Below, in pieces: positions 34,056-64,000 of a DNA stretch of 64,000 bases. The stretch is from positions 1,798,001 through 1,862,000 of the forward strand of contig CM074698.1 in the NCBI GenBank assembly GCA_037367355.1, in the 5' to 3' direction. The stretch's first letter is position 1. Each line of letters begins with the position of its first letter. Source of the stretch: Neoscytalidium dimidiatum (Eukaryota; Ascomycota; Dothideomycetes; Botryosphaeriales; Botryosphaeriaceae). Position numbers and translations under genes: made by a program. The notes below the pieces were generated by a model, which worked only from the letters and a program-made list of their open reading frames with translations, had not been told where the DNA came from and made no database searches.

Positions 34056-35524
34056 ATGGCCATCTCTAGCCCGCTGCACGCTCTTTCGACTTCTTCGTTT
34101 GTTTGCGGCGTTGCTTTGAGTCGCGGACTCCTCACGGCCACTCTTCTTTTAGCCAGATGCGCCACTTCCGAAAACCTACCATGGCACGGGTAAGCAAGAT
34201 TTGCGCTAGTTGTTTGCAGGTAAAGAGCTAATCACGACCCCAGAGTCAACCTCCCAGGTATGGATTTTGGCTCCCTTTCGGACGGAAGTGGCGGAATAAA
34301 AGATGGAGCAAAACCGCAGTACCCGCCGATGACAGATGTCGACGCCTGGCTGGATCTGAATGCAACACTGTTTCGATTTCCCGTACTGTGGAACTACATC
34401 CAGCCCAAGTCCTTTCCCACCAACGAAACGAGCGAAGCTGTTCTTGCGCATTTGGATAAGCTGATTGCCCGGGTAACGAACGATCAAACGGCGTATGCTG
34501 TCATTGATATTGTAAGCGCAAGTTGCGATTTCTTCCCGCTTTCATGTAAGAAGTTGAGTTGCTAATATTTACACTTCAGCACAACTATGCCAGATACGAT
34601 GGTGTCATCATCGGTCAGAGTGACGAGCGACCATTCAACGAAGACTTCGGCAACCTGTGGAGGATACTAGCGGAGCGGTACAGTAGCAACTCTCTCGTGG
34701 TATGTTTTCAGGCATTCTTATTGGAAAAGAGCCCATCTAAACATGAGAACAGATGTATGGCTTGATGAACGAGCGTAAGTTCGACTTGGCTACCTTTCGT
34801 GATGCTTGTGCTGAACTTGGATCACAGCGCATAACCTCAACACGGAGAAGTGGGCTGGTACTGTCAAACATGCAATTGATCAAATACGTACAGTCTCCAA
34901 AGACCAGTATATCTTGGTCCCAGGTACCGCTTATCAGGCAGTGAATACCTGGATGAAACAATCCCACAAGTATCTCTCGGATATCATTGACTCAGAAGAC
35001 AAGATACTCGTTGATGTGCATCAGGTATTTCTGTGCACTAAATAAAACCTTTCAGTATGACCAGGCTGATTTTGAGGCAGTATTTCGATGAGAAAGGCGG
35101 TCTCAGCGGCGACTGCGAAAACTTCTCCCCCATATACTCCAAGTTCTTCAAAGGCTTCACCTCTGCATTGAAGAAGCTCAAGGTCAAGGCCATCATGACT
35201 GAATTTGGCGGGCACAATACCACAAGCTGCATGAATGCATTGAACGACATGATCTCATTCATGGAAGACAATGAGGGCGAATGGTTTGGTTGGACGGTAT
35301 GGGGCCCGAGGCTGAAGAACTCGATCCTTTACTTGGATCCAAAGCGAGCAAACACGTCCGACACTGGAATTGTTATTGAGAGAGATGTGGTACTGGAACA
35401 CATGGTAGATGGTCAGCCTATACCAGGCGCATACAAGAGAGGAATTGGAAACAAATCTGAGGGCTTGTCGATGTTGTTTGTAATCTTAGCGCTGCTTATT
35501 GCACTCTTCATTACTTTAATGTAG
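34056..35524 (+). CDS. GH5-family glycoside hydrolase (cellulase/glucanase type), probably membrane- or GPI-anchored
   Basis: Six exons: 34056-34189, 34244-34511, 34580-34699, 34753-34774, 34828-35024 and 35081-35524, giving 394 residues. A hydrophobic leader ends near residue 36. The GH5 barrel starts with GVNLPGMDFG. It has a strand RFPVLWNYI, the acid/base Glu in YGLMNEPHN, VDVHQYFD, and the nucleophile Glu in IMTEFGGHN. Cleavage of beta-1,4- or beta-1,3-glucan chains with retention of configuration is the expected reaction; the subfamily is not resolved. The C-terminus has a short polar stretch then a strongly hydrophobic end (MLFVILALLIALF), as in GPI-anchor signals or a tail anchor, so the enzyme probably stays at the cell surface. 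The acid/base motif is split: Asn-Glu lie at the end of the 22-nt exon 4. The next gene is also a wall-polysaccharide enzyme on the same strand. Confidence 0.85.
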
Positions 35525-36373: not shown

Positions 36374-39300
36374 ATGCGTCTTCGAAACACCTGCACGGCA
36401 CCTTCTCTTGCTCTTTTAGTGTTTTCTCGTCTTTCCACAGCAGCCTTCAATGCAGCATCCCAAGATAATGTTGCGGTCTATTGGGGTAAGATCATCCTTT
36501 GGAACCTTACCTCTTTGACACTGACATCCTGTGTAGGCCAAAACTCGTATGGAGCGAGCAGTGGCAGCCTGGCCCAACAAAGGCTCTCCACATATTGTGC
36601 TGGTAAGTATTTATAGAAAACGAACCATGACACCGGCTAAATACTGTGGCAGATTCAAACATTGACGTACGAACTACTAAACATGATGTGAAAATGGAGC
36701 TGACTTCGGATAGATAATTCCTCTGGCATTCATGACCGTCATCACCGACTCATACGGCGAACCGGAGATCAACTTTGCCAATCAAGGTGACAAATGTGCT
36801 GTCTTCTCTGGTACTAATCTACTTGACTGTTCTGAGCTTGAGTAAGTTTGATTGATCTTTACAATTTTGATGAGGATCTAACACGTCCCTCATTGCAGGG
36901 AAGACATTACCACTTGTCAGCAAATGTACGGCAAGACAATATTACTGTCCATTGGCGGGGCTACATACAGTGAGGGTGGCTTCAGCTCTGCGTCTGAAGC
37001 TCAGTCCGCCGCACAGTTGGTTTGGGCCACGGTTGGTCCGGAACAAGAAAGCAGCGTCACTTCCGACGGCACCAAAATATACAGACCTTTCGGGTCTGCA
37101 GCTGTCGATGGCTTTGACTTTGATTTCGAATCGACTGTCTCGAATATGGCTCCGTTTGTACAGGCTCTTCGTGACCTCATGGACGCGACGGAGGCTGCGG
37201 ATGGCAAGCACCGTTTGCTTACAGCTGCACCACAATGCCCGTACCCGGACGCTGCAGACGATCAATTTCTCTCTGGAACAACTGCTGTCAAGATGGATGC
37301 AATATTCATCCAATTTTATAACAATTACTGTGGCTTGACCAGCTTTGCATCTGGATCTTCCCTCCAGAACAACTTCAATTACGAAACTTGGGATGCCTGG
37401 GCAAAGTCCAGCGCAAACCCAAATGTGAAGGTATAACTACCATTACTCAGTATTTTGAGTCTTAGACTAATTGCAACAGATTCTCATTGGAGTGCCAGCT
37501 TCCTCAACAGCGGCAGGCTCTGGTTATATAACGGCGTCGGCTCTTGAGCCAATCATCGACTATGTGTCAACTTTCAACAGTTTTGGCGGTGTCATGATGT
37601 GGGACGCTTCCCAGGCTTACGCCAACACCGGATTCCTTCCTGCTGTCAAATCATACCTGGTCTCCCTTGCCGGTGGGGCATCAAATTCAGCCACTTCCAT
37701 CTCCACTACCTCTACTACTGCTACTGCTACTTCCTCGAGCCTGACCTTGACTTCAACAGTAGCTCAGACTTTCACAAGCCTTACAAATACGACTTCAAGC
37801 ACGACTCCAGGTTTAGCTTCAACTCCATCTGCCGATAGCCAATCACTCACAAGTGCGCCAATTTTCGCTGAATCCTCGAATGCGGCCACGTCCACCAGCG
37901 TCGCACAATCGGCCAGCACAGCGCTTTCATCAACGACAACTCTATCCGTGAGGAACATTACCAATGCAAGAACTTCTACGTCAACGTCACGAAAAGCATG
38001 TTCCGCACGCAGCAACAATACCTCGGCTGCAACTCCCTCAGTGGCCTTGACCCCTTCCGAGCCAGCAACACTGTCTGAGATTATGGCCTCTTCGGGAACC
38101 TGGACTCCGTCTGCTACCTTGACTCCCTTAAACCAGACAGCCGCCACAAGTGGTGTGGTCTCCACTATAAACAGCTTCACAACCCCCATGTATTCTATGA
38201 ACACTACAATAATTCCAGCGGCTTCCAACTCGGAGACTTCACCGTATATGAGCCTTGCCACGCCGCCTATCACTCAGAGCAGCTCGCGCAACGTCGGAAA
38301 CCTTTCTGGGCAGCCATCAGGGGGCTACAACACGACCCTTTTGCCCACTTCTTCGCTTGCCACCAGGAATGCAACGCTCACAACCTCTTCGACGCATCAA
38401 GGCACCTACACGGCTGGATACAACACGTCTATCATTGGCACAGATCCTGCTTCCTTCAGAAGCAGTACCTCGACGCCGCTCGTAACAACTGCTTTATCCC
38501 AGACCGTTGCCTTGTTCACACCGCCTTCCAATAGATCCGCTACTCCAGTGAGCTCGGTTGGTATCTACCAAAATGAGACCACAGCAAAATCATCTGCTTG
38601 GGCGCAGCTTAACATTACGATTCCCGCTACACCGCTTCAGACACCGTGGGGTAACGTGTCCGTTATTACCACGAATACCGGACCTTGGTTCACGAATTCT
38701 ACCAACACCGCGCTCTCGGCTACAGCATATTTCTCGACAACACCGAATAGCCGTTCCACCACTTCAACAAGTCGGCTTACTCTTTTTGTGAACTCCACTG
38801 CGCCCGTGCTGTCTACTCCATTACCGACAGAAGCATTGAGCCTTGCTTCAAGTACATCTACTGGGACCGGAAGTATCCTTGTTTCTTCAGCAGGTAGCTC
38901 AGCTCCGTACGGCAACAGGACTCAGACAAGTGGGATTATTCATTCTGTGACGCCGATCAGATCTGCACAGGATGCGGCCTCTTCGTCTTCATCCACAATC
39001 AGCGTCACCGTCACGTCTGTGAGTCTTGGTACAGGTAGTGCAACTGGTACTTTGGCGGGCGGTCAGACTTTAGGGGTCCAGTCTACTGCGTCATCGGGGC
39101 TGCTGGCTAGCTTTGATCCCACACTGGCCGCCTCAGTCTCTACCAGTACTTCGGTCGGCAGTACACACTCTACTGACTCAGTCCATCTGCCTGGAAGTAA
39201 TGGAGTTAGTCAGATGTCAACAATATCGGGTACCATTTCCACGCCGTTCACTTCATCTTCAGTGGCTTCAGGAGTAAACAGCGCATCCACAAATTCGAGC

Positions 39301-42300
39301 GGGTTGCCAGACGCCAATGCAGCCGGCGCATCACGTTCGCTATCTGTGTCCGCAAACAGAGGTTCCACTGCCAGCACCAGTCAACCCACTGGAGTTACTT
39401 TCATTAATGTAACTCCAACTGGAATCTCCTCGAGTTCTGCGGGAACCTCGATCCGGCCGGGCTCGTCTACTGCAGGGTCAACTGTTCTCGGCAACTCTGT
39501 TCAGATATCGATCGTTACCAGCTACATCACTATTACGACCGGTGCACAAAATATTTGTTCCAACACAAACAGCCTTTCTTTGGCGGGCCCCACAACGAGT
39601 AAGGCTCTGGTACTTGCTGAAACGACTGCAACGTCTACAACAAACCCCAACTCCGCTGTGTCGCCGGTTTCCACAGAGAGCCAAGGCACATTCACGGGGG
39701 AGACTCTTGTTAGCATATCAAGTAGTGCAAAACCTCTCACTACTAGCCAGAATTCAGTCTCTGCCGGAGCGACGGCGACTTCTACGACAAGTGCATCGAC
39801 TGACAATCAGGCAATCTCCACAACAGGCCAAGTTACGCCTATCACGCAGATTCCTACGAGCAAACCGAGTAGCACGGTGCCTCCTAGTACCTCTTGGCCA
39901 GTAACACTAGAGCCCTATCCGCAAGTGACTGTCCAACCACCATGGCCTACTCCTGCCTTAAACAACACCACCTCGGCTGCCCGTAAGTGTCAGCTTCTGG
40001 GAGCATTAAACAGAATTCAGAATTCCCCCAATGCAGAAACTGATAACATATTCCAGGAACCGCAACCACCGCTTCCGTAACCACCTGCAGCAGCAACTAC
40101 ACCTACTCGACCTCGCGCTTCTGTTCCGGTGACACCTGCACCGCCAACAACCTCACCTCACCCAATATTTTTGCATCCTCCTCCGACGCCGCCCCACCGT
40201 CCAACATCCCCCGCCGCGCCGACCATCCCGTATCCCGCTCGCACATCACCAACACGACCGGGCCCCTCCACACGAACAAATTCCACGCCAACCTCTTCCT
40301 CTCCTCCCAAACCTCCAGCGCCTGGACGCACCCCTACTCCGTCGCCTGGCCCTCCGGCACCGACGCCCTCCACTCGCACGGCCTCGCCATCTCGCACATC
40401 CCGCGCAGCCAGTTCGCCTTCGGCGACGCGACGACACACAACAGCTCGCGCTACTTCTTCGCGCCGCTGGGCATCCACTCGCTCATCCTCTCCGCGACCG
40501 AGCTCGAGCCGTCGTCGTCGGCGTCCTCATCCAACGCGACGCTCTCCGTCACCCCCAGCGCGAGCGGCATGGCCGCCAACGCTACCTTCTCCGGCTCCTC
40601 CTCCCCCGGCGAGCCGCTGCTCACGTTCCCGCTCGTGCAGGGCATGGCGTTCGTGACGGGCGTGTACCACGGGGCCACGCCGCTGGTCCAGAGCGGCGTG
40701 GGCTTCACTTCCGTCGAGGGTCCGCTGAACTTCACTTCCTCCTCCTCCTCCGCCGATGGCACCGGCAGCATGGTCAAGTACCGCGCCACCCTGGCAGACG
40801 GCACGACCTGGCTCCTCTACGCGGTCCCCGCGCCCGGCGCCACGGCCGCGGTCTTCGAGCTGGCGGACAGCACGGCGCTGACCGGGCCGGCGGGCTGGCG
40901 CGGGTCGCTCAGCGTCGCGAAGCTGCCGACGTCCGGCGGACGGGCGGGAGAGGAAGAGGAAGAAGAGGCGGTCTACGACGCCGCGGCGGGCGCGTATCCC
41001 GTCGACGTGGAAGTTTTCGGCAGCGTGGACGGCGGCGCCGGGGCGGCAACGTACGGCTTCCGCTTCGCGAAGGGTGGGCACGGCGTCGGCGCGGGCAGGG
41101 AGCTGCTGATGTACGCGCTGCCGCACCACGTGGCGAGCTTCGACGGCGCGACGGCGGCCGCCCGGACGGGCCTCTCGCTCGCGACGGTGACCAAGGGGTA
41201 CGCGACGGCGTACGTCGGCGACGCGTGGACGATGACGGAGGGCCAGGTGCCGGTCGGCATGGGCTTCGCGCCGTACGCGGCCGGCAGGGGGAGCGTGTCG
41301 TCGCTGTCGGCGGCGGCGGCGTGCGCCGTCCTGGACGCGGGCGCCGAGGAGCTGGCGCAGGACGTCGCCGCGCAGACGGACCTCGACTCGATGTACTTCT
41401 CCGGCAAGGCGCTGGCCAAGTTCGCGGCCGTCGTGTACGCCGTGCACGACCTGGGCGGCAGCGCGGAGCTGGCGGCGCAGGGGCTGAAGAAGCTGGTCGC
41501 TGCGCTCAAGGTCTTCGTCGACAACGAGCAGACGAATCCGCTGGTGTACGATGAGGTGTGGGGAGGCGTGGTGTCGAGTGCTGGGTATGCGGATTCCGGC
41601 GCGGACTTTGGGAATACGTATTACAACGACCATCACTTCCACTACGGGTATTTGTAAGTTCTTTGTCCTTGGATTCGATGCGGTGGATTTCAACTGACCT
41701 GGAGCACAGCCTTTACACCGCCGCCGTCATCGGCTACCTCGACCCGGACTGGCTCACGACCGGCACGAACAAAGCCTGGGTCGACATGCTAGCCGCCGAC
41801 TTCGCCAGCCCTACGCATAGCACCTACTACCCCTTCAGCCGCAGCTTCGACTGGTTCCACGGACACAGCTGGGCCAAGGGGCTCTTCTCCTCCGGCGACG
41901 GCAAGGACCAAGAATCGTCATCCGAGGACGCCTTCGCGTCGTACGCGCTCAAGCTGTGGGGCAAGGTGACGGGCGACGTCGCCATGGAGGCGCGCGCCAA
42001 CCTCATGCTGGCGGTCCAGGCGCGCAGCTTCCAGTCGTACTTCCTGATGACGAGCTCCAACACGATCCAGCCGCCCGAGATCATCAACAACAAGGTCACC
42101 GGCGTGCTGTTCGAGAACAAGGTCGACTGGGCCACCTACTTCGGCGACAAGTGGTACTACAAGGAGGGCATCCACATGATCCCCGTCCACGTGCCCTCCG
42201 CTCTCATCCGTACGTCCGAGTTCGTTGCCGAAGAGTACGACACGTATATGTCCGGTGGTCGCATCGACGAGGCAGAGGCCGGATGGCGGGGCATCTTGTA

Positions 42301-42436
42301 CGCGAATACGGCCCTGATCGAGGCGAAGGAAGCGTATGAGTACTTTGCCAGCGCGAATTTCAGCAGTGAATATCTGGACGGCGGCGCCAGTAGGACGTGG
42401 TATCTGGCATATACTGCTGCCTTGGCAGGACTATGA
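36374..42436 (+). CDS. Apparent GH18 chitinase - Ser/Thr linker - GH81 beta-1,3-glucanase fusion
   Basis: Eight exons: 36374-36485, 36537-36602, 36653-36666, 36714-36841, 36899-37430, 37480-39982, 40057-41653 and 41710-42436. All phases agree, giving 1892 residues. Residues 1-23 look like a signal peptide. Residues 27-350 are a class III (plant-type) GH18 chitinase with ILLSIGGATY and catalytic DGFDFDFE. Residues 351-1118 are Ser/Thr-rich with many NxT/S sites, a probable rod-like O-glycosylated linker. A short Cys cluster (near 1129-1146) precedes a complete GH81 domain (about 1155-1892) starting PPSNIPRRADHPV. It carries the family motifs ADFGNTYYNDHHFHYGYF, FDWFHGHSWAKGLF and DQESSSEDAF, which hold the proposed acidic catalytic residues. 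The expected activities are cleavage of chitin and of beta-1,3-glucan in one secreted protein. No Met with a signal peptide precedes the GH81 part. The alternative is two adjacent genes mis-joined. Confidence 0.8.
37681..39982 (+). other. Ser/Thr-rich linker-coding region of the GH18-GH81 gene
   Basis: This part of exon 6 encodes about 770 residues that are almost entirely Ser, Thr, Ala, Gly, Pro and Asn with scattered N-glycosylation sites. It has no stop. Such regions in fungal wall proteins are usually heavily O-mannosylated and hold catalytic domains away from the membrane or anchor them in the wall. Codon use here is mixed (A/T and G/C third bases), unlike the GC-rich GH81 exons downstream. 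Confidence 0.8.
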
Positions 42437-55888: not shown

Positions 55889-58800
55889 GAAAAACGAAAT
55901 ACATGGCGCAATGTAGTTACTTGGTATCTAGGCGTCAGCCACTGTATGCGCGGGGATGCCATGGCTCGCTGTCTTCACTGCGCTATTTTTTTTTTTTCTT
56001 CTGCTGAGCCATGCGCCTTGTCTGAATGCCAAGAGATTATGCAGATGTGCGCATGTAGAAGAAGCAGCCTATGCAAGCGCCCTATTAGCGGCAAACGATG
56101 GTGTCTTTTTGCATATGGTTCTTTCGGGTCGGAATGCCTCGACCGGTGCTTGCTTACGCCCGAGTCTTCTTCTTCCCTGTGCTTTTCATGCCGGTCATCC
56201 CACACCTGCATACCGCGCTCAACTGCCGCAACCAAGCTATTTTCTCTGGTAAGTATGCAGTGATCATGACGGTCGCCGCCGAACGCCGTGCTCCGTATCG
56301 CAGACGAAGATATTGAAGAAGTCACGACGTACCCGAGCATCACGTGTGGCGATATTGTCTCAGTTGTGCAAAAAGCCGCAGGCGTAGCAAACGCGTCACG
56401 CAGGAAGCTTGACTCATCCCACAAGCGGGAAAGCGTCTAAATTCAGAAAGTACAATAGCTGACCCGAGGCCGATACGTCACTCTCGCATTCTTCCACCAG
56501 CCCTGCCCTCGTCATCAACCACACACAACGTTCAGCCTTCCACGTGAGTGGCCGCCGAAAGCCACCCGCGGCACTCCCGATCTCATCGACGGCAAGACAT
56601 GCTCGCATAAGAATAGGCTACGAGGAATAAGCCGTTGGGTACGGCAAGACATGCTCGCATAAGAATAGGCTACGAGGAATAAGCCGTTGGGTCTGCGCCT
56701 GACTGCTGATGTGACTACGAGGGAAAATTGTTGGTATGGCATTTGATCTGTGCAGATGATATGATACGATATGGGGTGTTCGGTCCTCCGTCGGTCGTTC
56801 TGAGATGAGAGCTCCGGGAAACAGAAAGTTGTTGCCTACAGCTCTCCTCATTCTCCCCCTCATCCACCATCCGTTCACCCATCCCTGCGGCAATGCAGCA
56901 CAGCAGATCATCCCTCCGCGGCCAATCAACCACGCGACACCAACATCTGCTCTTGCATCCTCTCGCTCACTACCAGTCTCCGCTCACCCAGCACTAGCCC
57001 CATCAGGCAACCAAGAAGCTTTTCTTACCTGCGCCTCCCCCTCTCCGATCGGATTCACTCGCTCCGCGAAATCCGCATCGCAGCAGAGATGGGGGCCGAA
57101 ATGCAGACCTGCTCGCCTGGCCGAGCCGATGTCTCGTTGCTTCGGAAACACCGACTCTACTTGTTGCTATTTTGATGGTTTGTCTCCTCGCGACTCTTTT
57201 TCTCCGCTGCGCCTGCGCTCCTCCTCTCTCGCCTCCGCATGGACGCTCTTTCGGTCCGCGTTCCGGCTGTGCGAACATCGCTGAGCCTCTCTGCTTGAAC
57301 GACGGCCCACATAGCGGAAAGGCCGAACAGCATGCTTTATCGCGAGCGGCGAGAAATAGACCAAAACGACCTCGCGCACCCCGAGCAAGGATTGCGCTGC
57401 ATCCACGGGATCGCGGGTTGCCATTTCGGGGAGAAGGTGACGGTCGTCGTCATCGTCGCGGGGCTGAACTCAGTTGCCTCTCTTTCTCTCTCTCTCTTTA
57501 CCGCTCCCGCGACGTCCTCCCTGTTCAAAGCTGAATGCTTTTCCATTTTTAATATTCGGGAAACCCTTGATGGTAAAGGGAAAAAAAAAAAAAAAAAGAA
57601 ACCGGCCCACACGACCTTGCTCGCCTTCCTCTACGTTGCCCTGAACCGAAGTGTCGGTTTTGACACGCGACGCGTATCAGCCGGAACGTTGTACCGACGG
57701 GATGTTACTGCTTCGTTCGCCCTGTCGCCAACACTTGTTCTTGTTTCTCTCTCATGCGACGTGTCGCATGCATCAAAAAGCATTATCAAAAAAGTAATTC
57801 ACAGAGTTCTATTTATTCGATGAGAAGACACTTCTATTAATACGCAGGGTTGGCGTTTCGGCCTGGTCAGGTCCGTTTCGGCGCGAGCTCCGTTGTTACT
57901 CTAAGACAGCCACTTGAGCTTGCATCCACCGGCCGGAAATCAGACTTCGAGAACCGGTGAATGAAGGGAAATGGAAGAGGACAAGGTATTTGGAACAGGC
58001 GAGGGAGAAGGGTTTCCCGCACGTGGGTGGGGGGGAGTCGAGTCCCTGCTTGTGACGTTGCAAGTAGAGTGCTGCACTCTGTGAAACCGGGCCTTCTCCG
58101 TTCTTCTATTTTGCTTCCACGCTTTCGATCGCAAGGCTTTCTTTCACGCGGACGGTCCGATTCGGAACCCTGGAATTCGGTGTCCCTGACTATCGTGGCC
58201 TGTCCCCGGATTGATTGCGGTCAGGTTGTTGCAGCCGTTGGTGTTGTCCCTGCGTTTTTCTGTAGCATGTACTTACTTTAGCCACCAGATATGGTGCAAC
58301 AGCGCATATGACGCAAACGAGGTCCGCGCCTCAGATAGACGACGCGTGAGGGACGACGTTTAAGTTGATGACTCTGACGTCACACCCGCAAAGGGTCCTC
58401 GCGTGTCCAACATCGAGCGTCCCTGCAACACAACCGAGCGCAAACAAGGTTCCGAACAGACTCGAGCGTTATAGCTGTGCGCGATACGCTCGGCCGGTTT
58501 TCACTTTCCCCACACCTATCGTGAGGAGCGGTTCCGCATATCGGGGTTGCCAAGGAAACCTTAACGGGCAAGATAGCGCTCTTACAAATGATGCTGTAAG
58601 CTGCTACTAAGACTGCCCCTGACGTCGTTTCGATATATTAGGCTCGTAGGGTTGAGTTTGGCGGGAGTCGGCACCTTTCGGCCGAGATTAGGCTTTATTC
58701 CCGCCGACGATCATGGACGACAAACACGTTATCGTGTTATTATAAGCTCGGATTCTTCGTTGATGGGGCATCAGAAGATTTTGCGGTGCGTGCGTTGTGT

Positions 58801-59879: not shown

Positions 59880-60830
59880 AAAAGGAAAATAGAAAAGAAA
59901 AAAGAAAGGAAAGGGATTATAGAAAGATACGGTTTCTTTAGCTGGCACTTCTAGTAAAATATCAGTAGATAGGAAATATTATAATATAAAAAGCGACTTT
60001 ATAAATTTAATAATAAAATTATAAAAACCCTTATTATAGACTATATATTAATCTATTAGCTATTTTCTATCTAAGTCTAATTATTATTAAAGATACTAAG
60101 ATTCTCTAAGATAAAAGTTTATTAAAAAACTTATTTAATAAAAATAAATAAAATTTATATTTTAAATAGTATCTTATTCTATATATATTATATAAATATT
60201 TTTTAAAGGGATTAAATATATTATTAAATAAACTTAGAGTTTTAAAGAGCTATAATAATAAATAAAGAAAACTTATATAATAATAAAATAAAAATTAATT
60301 AATAAATTAACTATATAAGAACTATATAATAAATAGAAAATTAATAGAAAAATAAAAGATCTATATTTATAAATAGATAATTTAATAAAGAGAATATTTT
60401 AATTAGCTAATTTTAGTTAGAATTTTACTTTTTACTTAGCTACTAGAATTCTATTAATAATATACTAGTAGTTTTTATTTATAATAGTCTATAGTAATCT
60501 ATTTATTTATAATTTAATATTTAATAATAATATATTAGCTAGTAGTTAGTTTAGCTTTTATTATAAATACTTTTTAAACTTTTCTAGTATTTTTATTTAA
60601 ATTACTAGTAAATTATTTTATACTAGAAGAGGTGGCTTACTATCTAATAAATTTAGAAAAAATAAAAGTATTTTATTATAGACTCTACTAATTATTCTAG
60701 TAGAAAAGGCCTTAAATATATTTATATAAGTTAAAGCTATATAGCTATGTAATATTATATATAGACCGGGGTAATACGATTCTACTAGAGTATTTATAGG
60801 CTATTTTATACTCTTACAGCAGCATAAGCT
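59880..60830. repeat. AT-rich block with RIP signature
   Basis: About 950 bases that are overwhelmingly A and T. The few remaining C and G sit almost only in CT and AG contexts, while CpA and TpG dinucleotides are nearly absent from about 59960 to 60740. This is the expected product of repeat-induced point mutation, which turns CpA into TpA on either strand of duplicated DNA. No open frame survives. The ancestor was probably a repeated sequence such as a transposon fragment, but its type cannot be told. Edges are fairly sharp: normal composition returns at about 60760-60830, within or next to the 3' end of the carboxylesterase gene. Confidence 0.85.
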
Positions 60831-62591
60831 CTAGTAAAAGAACTCTGCACTACGGCTCCTTATTAAGTGAATAGGGCCTGCTCGATAGTCGTCCCTCTCA
60901 AGATAAGAAGTTCTATTTCCATCAAATACCATATTCATTGGATTGCTTTTCGAATAGCGCGGCCATTCTTCCAAGAATGAAGAGACTGCAGTTTGTCAGC
61001 AAGGCGGACAAGTAAGGCTATCGAAGAGAAATGAGGACTTACCGCCGTGGAAGTTTGGCGACAGAGTAACCACAAAGCTGATCCACATGCGTGCCATTAG
61101 CAACGCAAGGGCTTCGTACCGGTCTTTTCGATCTGCAGGCTCTACTTCAAAGGGGTTGACGCCATATCCGTTACCAACTGTGTTCCGGAACACAAACGGG
61201 ATCTCCTGAAAGTGCGTTGCACCAAGCATTTCCGATGAAACTCCGGAAGGAACAGTGTTGAACCGATAGCTGTATACTGGTACGCCGTATTCGCTCCAAA
61301 TCTCGCTTGTCATCCTCCTGGCTGCATCAAAGATCACATCGCTAAAAGCGAGTGATGCTAGGCCAAAATAGGACCCAAAGGCATCGGCCTGTACAGGTCC
61401 AAGCTCTCTTGACAGATTCAGAGTTGAGTATTGTTGTAGGAGAAGCTGGATTGTTTCGTTTGACGCCATGAAAGAGCTCTGTGCCAACAAAGCCGCAACA
61501 TCATCGGAATTGTTCGCCCTCATGTTGGCCTGGCGCACGAATGTAGTCCCCTCATTCGCATTAGTTCCAATGAGGAGCGGAACTCGAGCAAAATTTCCGT
61601 CTTGCATGGGGCTATGTTGCGAAATGATTACTTCGTCGAACACAGGGCCCCAGGTTTGCCTATTGAAAACGCTGTCGAGAGTCTCCACAGGAACAGATCG
61701 TAAGCAAATTAGGCGGTTTGGATGATGTAGGCAGTCTGTTGCGTTAAGTAGGTCTTGGTACATGGTTTCGCGCGAACTCGGTGCAACGTAGGGAACCCGG
61801 AAGATCGGTGCGCCGCTTTCTGCAATGGCCGCACGGAATGGTTGAGCACCTAGCTTTCCGTATCCTCGCAACTGGTGACCGATCGAGATTGCTCCTGCTG
61901 ATTCGCCGTGGATGGTCACCCTTGTGGGATCGCCCCCAAATGCCGCGATATTCTCCTGGATCCAATCAAAAGCCTTCCTCTGGTCGTGCAAGGCCACATT
62001 CATCAGGCCAGCTTCGTCGATATCAGTGCCTCCTAAGAAGCCCCACCCTGATACCCTGTAATTTATACTGACCGCAATGATAGGTGTACCCATGCTAACA
62101 GAGGTGTCGACCAAATAGGACATATTGTATCGTTGATCGCGGCTGGCGCCCTCCTGGAATCCTCCACCGTACAGCCAGACTAACACTGGAAGTAGCTCCC
62201 CAGCTTGATCCAGATTCTCAGGGCTGCTTGGGCGCACAATATTTAGCGTGAGGCAATCCTCGCTTTGTGGAAACTGGTACTCCGTCTGGGAGAAACCTTC
62301 AAGATGAAGAGAATAGCCTCTACAGGCCGGGCCATAAGAGGTCGCGAAGAAAGATGTATTCCATGGTTTGATCAGAGGATGAGGGAGGTCAAACCGTAGT
62401 TCCCCCAGGGGCGGCTCAGCGAAAGGGATACCAAGAAAATAATCTTGATTGTAGAAGCTATTATAGCTTCCAAGAACTGTGCCGTTTCGTGTTTCGACGG
62501 ATGGCTTGTGTTGTAAAACGTTCACTGGGCTAACCGGGATAGCTAGGGCGAGGTAAGGGTAGGCGAGAAGAAATGATGCCGCTATCTTCAT
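60831..62591 (-). CDS. Secreted type-B carboxylesterase/lipase
   Basis: Two exons on the minus strand, 62591-61043 and 60985-60831, giving 567 residues. An N-terminal signal peptide (about residues 1-17) is followed by the alpha/beta-hydrolase fold of the family. Landmarks are EDCLTLNI (residue ~111), the oxyanion Gly loop (LVWLYGGGF), the nucleophile in GESAGAIS (Ser231), the acidic residue in TNANEGTTF, and the His region GATHFQEIPFVF. It should hydrolyse ester bonds of lipids or other carboxylic esters outside the cell. The second exon supplies the usual end (ERDDYRAGPIHLI). Without it the frame would stop 17 codons into the intron. The 3' end abuts the RIP block, so its terminator may be altered. 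Confidence 0.87.
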
Positions 62592-64000
62592 TTTGAACGA
62601 ACTTAGAAACAGTCTGTGGGTAGTTCGTAGAAGATGAGTGAATATCTCGCCGCTTTAAATATCATGGTATGCTGTGGTGCGATGTTCTCCATATTATCTC
62701 AGCCTCCGCCATTATTCTTGATAGCGGCGTATGCTCTCCAGTCCAGCGATGATCTGCAGTGTACATTGAGAACTCATTTCGTGAACACGAGATCCGTAGG
62801 ATAGAGAGTAAGCGAGAGTTACTGCCTGCTTACTGCCAAGAAAGCTCGATATCGCCACAAAAGCCATCATAGCAACAGTGCACATGAAGTGTTTGTAAAG
62901 GGCCAAAAGAAAAAAAAAAAAGAAACTGGCATGCTTTCGCAAATGTCCGACTAAGTCCGTAATCCTCACGGCGTTAAGTAACAAGCCGATAATTCCGCAA
63001 TAGCATACCGTATCCCAAGCGTTCCGGATGACAAATTGAGCCTTTGAAGACGTCCGTAGGTGAAAAGCATAGGCAGCTGCGGAAGAAGAGCAGTTAGAAG
63101 GATAGTACAATAGACCATTACGCTTCCGCCTCACGGTCCGAATAGGCCCACACTGTCGCTGATTCTTCTTGATATCGTCTACCTCACAGGACACCAATCG
63201 CGAATGAAAGAACGGCATATATTCAGTGGTATGACCCCAAGCGCCAATCAGATGGAGCAGCTTCCGCGCGAAGGATAACGGCGAGTCCCCTCGAGCGCTT
63301 CAAATGTCTCGATGTAAGATCTAATAGGCGTATCCATAGATACCACCATGAGCTGTGGTGCTATAATGAAAGATTAGCTCTAGAAACTGGCGAGGCATCA
63401 CGACTTCTTGGCCGTGCGCATTCTTTGGCCCTCAGCGGATCTCTCGCATCCGTATTCCACGTGCGCTTGATTCGGGCCGCTCCCTCCTCTTTTTTTTTAA
63501 GCTGCGGACAGATTTACCCTTTGCGATTGTGTTTTGGATCAGATCAAGAGGGAGGCCCGGACCGATGGCCCTCTCTTCAGAACCGATGGCCAGATACCGT
63601 ATTTAACCCTTGTGGAGAATTTTTCTAACATCTTCTACGAATCGGATTATTGCGGTACTCGAAATGCGCCCACTCCTATTCTATCGCTAAAGTGGATATT
63701 AATTTAGCACCTATCGGGGCGGGACTCGGCTAGAGGATTGCTCTCTGATTCCGCAATCGCAGTGACCTATCAGCTCATGGTTCGGCGAAGCATCAATGTG
63801 AACACCATCGTCCGGATCTCAGGGTTGGGAGACTTCAATTCTCGGACAGCTACATTAGCTGGGGTCATGAACTTTCCAAACAGTAGAGAAACTAATATGA
63901 GATCCCGTGATGAGTAGGGCTGCAATTACCGTCTCGATCCGCTCCTGCAGTACCCGGCATGGCTGCCACAGACCGCACCTATTGGTGTCAGTAACGATGT
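62592..64000. other. Intergenic region to the window end
   Basis: No confident gene. A minus-strand frame at 63218-62712 includes a run of Phe codons that comes from a long A tract on the plus strand (near 62909-62920) and is not supported. A nine-T run is at about 63491-63499. Confidence 0.45.

Follow-up and report, generated by a model that had tools for sequence, protein, structure and literature searches.

Yeast keeps in two separate genes the activities that concern us here, those of the chitinase Cts1, which cleaves the septum, and of the GH81 endo-beta-1,3-glucanase Eng1; the yeast GH81 protein Eng2/Acf2 is not secreted. Yeast Eng1 enzymes act in cell separation, and deletion of engl1 alone gave no phenotype in A. 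fumigatus (PMC3627985). Enzymes of this ENG1/Engl1 type (A. fumigatus Engl1, yeast Eng1) have both Pfam halves of the GH81 family, its catalytic motifs and a Ser/Thr-rich N-terminal region, all of which recur in the protein described below; that protein differs in having no signal peptide of its own before the glucanase and in carrying a chitinase in front of it. Class III chitinases of the Chit33 type (PDB 7zya) share the catalytic motif of its chitinase part, but the solved Chit33 chain is a GH18 domain alone, whereas the present chain adds a long linker and a GH81 enzyme.

Few fungal proteins combine several different catalytic domains, and a survey of 218 fungal genomes lists one GH18-GH81 protein, Macph1|905 of Macrophomina phaseolina MS6, in its Table 1, with a single clause on 'a potential chitinase GH18/endo-beta-1,3-glucanase GH81' (PMC5428031; Sci Rep 2017, 7:222). 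Among the open-licence PMC matches listed, the pairing was named in no other article, and no functional study of the architecture was found. A chitinase survey of 373 genomes reports relatively few in Botryosphaeriales, and GH81 is counted 0 times in its text (PMC8042737).

The gene considered here lies at 36374-42436 (+) of the window, by which is meant the whole 64,000-nucleotide stretch of Neoscytalidium dimidiatum DNA that was analysed. It fits the layout catalogued in the survey, with both domains in one predicted chain and GH18 first, the same two catalytic domains in the same listed order as in Macph1|905, a comparison made by table entry and one clause. To the author of the preliminary description this pairing was not familiar as an architecture on record; given the entry in PMC5428031 the architecture is not new, and the fused gene adds a new member to one catalogued once before in M. 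phaseolina. The two genes may be orthologous; an M. phaseolina chitinase, P0131, deposited as a GH18-only model, groups with the GH18 half of the fused gene. We consider the best explanation, at a probability of about 0.85, to be that the gene encodes one secreted two-headed wall lysin, which arose by duplication and fusion and serves in conditional wall lysis.

Gene model, domains and active sites

In the splice model the gene comprises eight exons and 5,679 nt, equal to 1,892 codons and a stop, and its frame of 1,893 codons including the stop contains no internal stop, just as the preliminary description had it; all seven introns (7/7) run GT..AG and measure 47-74 nt. Exon 1 (36374..36485) supplies the start codon and the beginning of the GH18 chitinase, with a hydrophobic N-terminus (hydropathy 1.95) that, judged by hydropathy only, is a putative signal peptide. 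GH18 sequence continues through exon 2 (36537..36602), the 14-nt microexon 3 (36653..36666), exon 4 (36714..36841) and exon 5 (36899..37430). Intron 1 falls at VYWG|QNSYG, as it does in the chitinase paralogue on contig C9, and the microexon is supported by this paralogue, whose best reading likewise includes a 14-nt exon at the same site. Exon 6 (37480..39982) completes the GH18 barrel and continues into a Ser/Thr-rich linker and a GH81-type N-terminal element, TLEPYPQVT..PW. It is followed by the phase-1 joining intron (39983..40056, GTAAGT..CCAG; labelled "intron 5"), by exon 7 (40057..41653), with the GH81 N domain and the first part of the C domain at a GC3 of ~0.9, and by exon 8 (41710..42436), with the remaining C domain, the GH81 catalytic motifs and the stop codon.

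A frame that matches GH5 weakly (E 8e-6) is found upstream of the gene, at 35042-35524 (+). Elsewhere in the window a 52-bp unit occurs as two perfect tandem copies (56589-56692), and a block of 20% GC (60001-61000; 56% GC in a genome sample) is adjoined by a carboxylesterase frame (60999-62654).

All 2,503 nt of exon 6 are stop-free in frame, against 27 and 25 stops in the other two forward frames, and Ser and Thr make up 40% of residues in frame as compared with 11% in either alternative. In 1,000 first-order Markov simulations of the exon no sequence was stop-free in frame, the longest open stretch in any of the three frames being 388 codons. The stop-free Ser/Thr linker of some 770 codons that had been noted earlier measures 773 codons (residues 346-1118), and over residues 346-1170 the Ser+Thr content is 41.6%, with 23 N-glycosylation sequons. 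GTAAGT occurs once in 37480-40056, as the donor of the joining intron. Among the eight AG sites in 39990-40120, only the acceptor at 40056 preserves the GH81 frame: splicing to any earlier site would lead into the TGA and TAA at 40041-40046, and the sites 40090 and 40093, worked out by hand, are out of the GH81 frame.

Searches with Pfam-A place GH18 (PF00704) at residues 33-294 (66.6 bits, cut-off 29.6) and the GH81 pair, PF03639 and PF17652, at residues 1175-1526 (N domain, 337 bits, cut-off 25.6) and 1535-1883 (C domain, 505 bits, cut-off 25.6), which together cover the GH81 enzyme nearly full length. No further Pfam-A domain, and no carbohydrate-binding domain, was found in the chain at E up to 1, and exons 6 and 7 gave no match in NCBIfam; the chain ends in YLAYTAALAGL, where no GPI-like tail is apparent by eye. 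The best PDB match to the chitinase is Endochitinase 33 (7zya; residues 24-340), at 316 bits against 188 for 2uy2, which we take to be yeast Cts1; a Cts1-type origin of the chitinase, entertained as a candidate, is weakened by this nearer match to Chit33. The GH18 motif DxxDxDxE is present as DGFDFDFE (residues 177-184, in exon 5), D182 and E184 matching the residues that differ between PDB 7zya and 7zy9. In the glucanase, D1698, E1719 and E1723 are spaced by 21 and 4, equal to D588, E609 and E613 among the catalytic acids of ScEng2 (D518, D588, E609, E613); assignment was by motif and spacing, using the ScEng2 residue numbers given in PMC3627985, and D1643 is put forward as the fourth acid from its motif only, since it lies 55 residues ahead of D1698 where the ScEng2 numbering gives 70. 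The two active sites appear intact, and the chain is predicted to combine the activities of a class III (Chit33-like) chitinase and an ENG1-type endo-beta-1,3-glucanase.

It had been proposed that the GH81 part depends on the upstream frame, and this agrees with our finding neither a start nor a signal-like sequence that would serve a separate GH81 protein. The accompanying statement that no Met precedes the GH81 catalytic domain is correct for exon 7 but not for the linker, where there are five in-frame Met (residues 486, 521, 524, 541 and 863). By hydropathy, the residues after each of the five fall short of the presumed signal peptides, the best 11-residue value being 1.13 against 1.95, 2.05 and 2.66 at the starts of the fused chain, the GH81 paralogue on contig C8 and the C9 chitinase, respectively. 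The highest value after an ATG in any frame of the exon-intron stretch, 1.56 at 40031, belongs to a frame of 33 codons only. A single chain joining both enzymes is well supported at the gene level, because the coding exon is continuous, the intron phases are common to a stand-alone GH81 gene and GH81 alone has no start or signal-like sequence; we take the fusion to be real at the DNA level, and a single protein product is very probable.

Relatives of the two halves and the place of the join

The genome (43.8 Mb, 40 contigs) contains at least two GH81 matches, in the window and on C8, and at least 13 GH18 matches, counted by exon. Stand-alone forms of both enzymes are present, the GH81 gene on C8 adjoining UTP14 and the chitinase on C9. 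The C8 glucanase (an 842-aa model, incomplete at the C-terminus) has its own start and a hydrophobic N-terminus, both absent from the fused GH81 copy. The C9 chitinase is identical to the fused one at 227 of 333 aligned residues, and its introns 1-4 and microexon are placed as in the fused gene; its tail is short.

The first exon of the C8 gene includes TTLELYPQVTTGDPW shortly before a phase-1 intron, and the fused gene includes VTLEPYPQVTVQPPW shortly before the phase-1 joining intron, the TLEPYPQVT..PW element being common to both, with similar flanks. The intron between exons 7 and 8 (labelled "intron 6"), of phase 2 at HFHYGY, is also present in the C8 gene. Within the linker, residues 991-1118 align with the C8 N-terminal region at a score of 89, a value attained in 4 of 2,000 shuffles, and the maximum over 32 further windows of the linker was 67; this match is modest. 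Because the GH81-type element and a same-phase intron are also found in C8, the joining intron looks like the GH81 gene's own old first intron, and the fusion breakpoint would then lie upstream of it, inside the exon 6 linker. The joining intron had itself been considered as the breakpoint from a step in GC3, an idea that was dropped when GH81-type sequence was found upstream of the intron.

A GH81 tree built on 37 domains (35 selected out of 99 database matches, plus the fused and C8 copies) joins the fused and C8 copies as sisters with support of 100/100 and branch lengths of 0.47 and 0.33, the residue make-up of the fused domain being flagged as unusual. This sister relation indicates that the GH81 part arose by duplication and fusion, not by transfer. 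GC3, which is ~0.5 in the chitinase and the linker, climbs over 40057-42300 by way of 0.76 until it reaches 0.9-1.0 in the GH81 exons. A sample of 53 ORFs of at least 300 codons, from 17 genome stretches and the window, has a mean of 0.65 (sd 0.09) with one at 0.93; the C8 GH81 gene has 0.58. Horizontal transfer of the GH81 part, hinted at by the GC3 of 0.9, was rejected in view of the C8 sister and the two common introns, and transfer is an unlikely cause of the high value.

For GH18 the tree comprised 32 domains (30 taken from 120 listed of 3,026 matches, plus the fused and C9 copies); the fused chitinase groups with P0131 of Macrophomina phaseolina and P0132 of Botryosphaeria dothidea (100/99), and the C9 chitinase with those of Neofusicoccum, Lasiodiplodia, Diplodia and another of B. 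dothidea (85/96). These chitinase relatives point to a host in the Botryosphaeriales. P0131 (364 aa) and P0132 (421 aa) are deposited as GH18-only models, which counts against a fusion in those records. P0132, whose model begins MAIIPLAFM and does not include the first exons, consists of GH18 and a Ser/Thr tail and is called 'endo-1,3-beta glucanase' at its source, a designation found for 1 of the 120 listed chitinase matches (3,026 in all) and for 8 of the 99 GH81 proteins; tail and name together suggest that its gene may also contain GH81 sequence.

Co-occurrence of the two domains, a point raised in the preliminary description, is seen in the one M. phaseolina protein of PMC5428031 (Table 1) and not in the database proteins, where none of 99 GH81 and none of 31 GH18 matches of 1,040-3,311 aa carries both Pfam labels. 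A motif check of these 130 proteins likewise gave none with both, the GH81 motif being present in 93 of 99 and the GH18 motifs in 30 of 31. About 8,000 candidates were scored in each search, and proteins below 1,040 aa fell outside the both-domain search, so that a short-linker fusion could be missed. One database protein, P0100 (source lgn), shows by eye three class III GH18 domains between Ser/Thr linkers.

Seven of the 99 long GH81 proteins (P0010, P0012, P0057, P0061, P0070, P0079 and P0094) are UTP14-GH81 joined models, which are probably annotation errors over a conserved neighbourhood. On C8 the stand-alone GH81 gene and UTP14 lie side by side (L015:427-3447 and L015 5618 to ~8875). Since UTP14 adjoins the C8 copy and recurs in the seven models, C8 may well be the ancestral GH81 locus; the same models suggest that gene callers can merge neighbours.

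Competing readings of the locus

It is possible, though unlikely, that the one locus has two outputs, retention of the joining intron or transcripts ending in the linker yielding a chitinase with a Ser/Thr tail only, and the ratio of chitinase to glucanase being set by splicing or polyadenylation. The frame does stay open through the joining intron (39983-40080), up to the stop at 40078-40080, so that read-through would yield chitinase and linker with no GH81 part, and P0132 combines GH18 and a Ser/Thr tail yet is named as a glucanase, as if a GH81 product were also made. However, the joining intron is expected to be removed efficiently, given its GTAAGT donor and the corresponding intron in C8, and P0132 may be a poor model because its first exons are missing. 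A further reading, that two genes have been read as one, the chitinase transcript ending in the linker and a non-secreted, Eng2/Acf2-like GH81 protein being expressed from an internal promoter, strikes us as distinctly improbable. The five in-frame linker Met would offer starts, the UTP14-GH81 models hint at a tendency of gene callers to merge neighbours, and the deposited relatives P0131 and P0132 are GH18-only; but no intergenic sequence is seen, the Ser/Thr-rich coding character continuing up to the GH81-type intron, nothing like a signal peptide comes after any of the linker Met (1.13 at best against 1.95-2.66), and the own start and hydrophobic N-terminus of the C8 paralogue are absent from the fused copy.

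That unrelated parts were united by an assembly or sequencing artefact is scarcely credible. The GC3 step from ~0.5 to ~0.9 after the joining intron is what such an artefact might leave, but the change is flanked on either side by GH81-type sequence, the contig (C4) extends over 4.2 Mb, and an M. phaseolina protein with this pairing is on record (PMC5428031, Table 1).

A candidate wall lysin and its meaning

The reading preferred here, a single two-headed lysin, can be put as a sequence of events. An ENG1-type GH81 gene would have been duplicated in the Botryosphaeriales lineage, and the duplicate, having lost its own start and signal peptide, would have become fused behind the tail of a chitinase that was itself a duplicate, with the breakpoint inside exon 6 and upstream of the GH81 gene's own first intron. 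Transcribed as one mRNA, the fused gene would encode a secreted, wall-directed chain of class III GH18 chitinase, long Ser/Thr-rich linker and ENG1-type GH81 glucanase, in which the linker is likely O-mannosylated and extended, the two heads acting on the chitin-glucan composite of the wall.

The most likely job of such a protein would be conditional wall lysis, whether in autolysis, in the separation of spores or hyphae, or in attacking other fungi. From sequence these roles, and the septum splitting proposed in the preliminary description, look alike and cannot be told apart. Because stand-alone copies of both parents persist in the genome, an added, conditional role may be favoured over a housekeeping one. 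GH16 and GH81 glucanases together are reportedly tied, by the title of a later paper, to conidial wall morphogenesis. One may go further and suppose a lineage-specific bifunctional wall lysin, conserved in several genera of the Botryosphaeriaceae, in which retention or removal of the old GH81 intron sets whether chitinase or chitinase-glucanase is made, and in which one chain couples lytic activities that come from different secreted proteins, each with its own gene, when yeast splits its septa; this is a proposal that we hold to be doubtful.

As the models of two relatives are chitinase-only and seven UTP14-GH81 models appear merged, catalogues may both under- and over-count fusions. The locus offers a testable case of duplication and fusion in which both kinds of parent are still present in the same genome. 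Two enzymes able together to dismantle the chitin-glucan composite of the fungal wall appear to have been linked by evolution.
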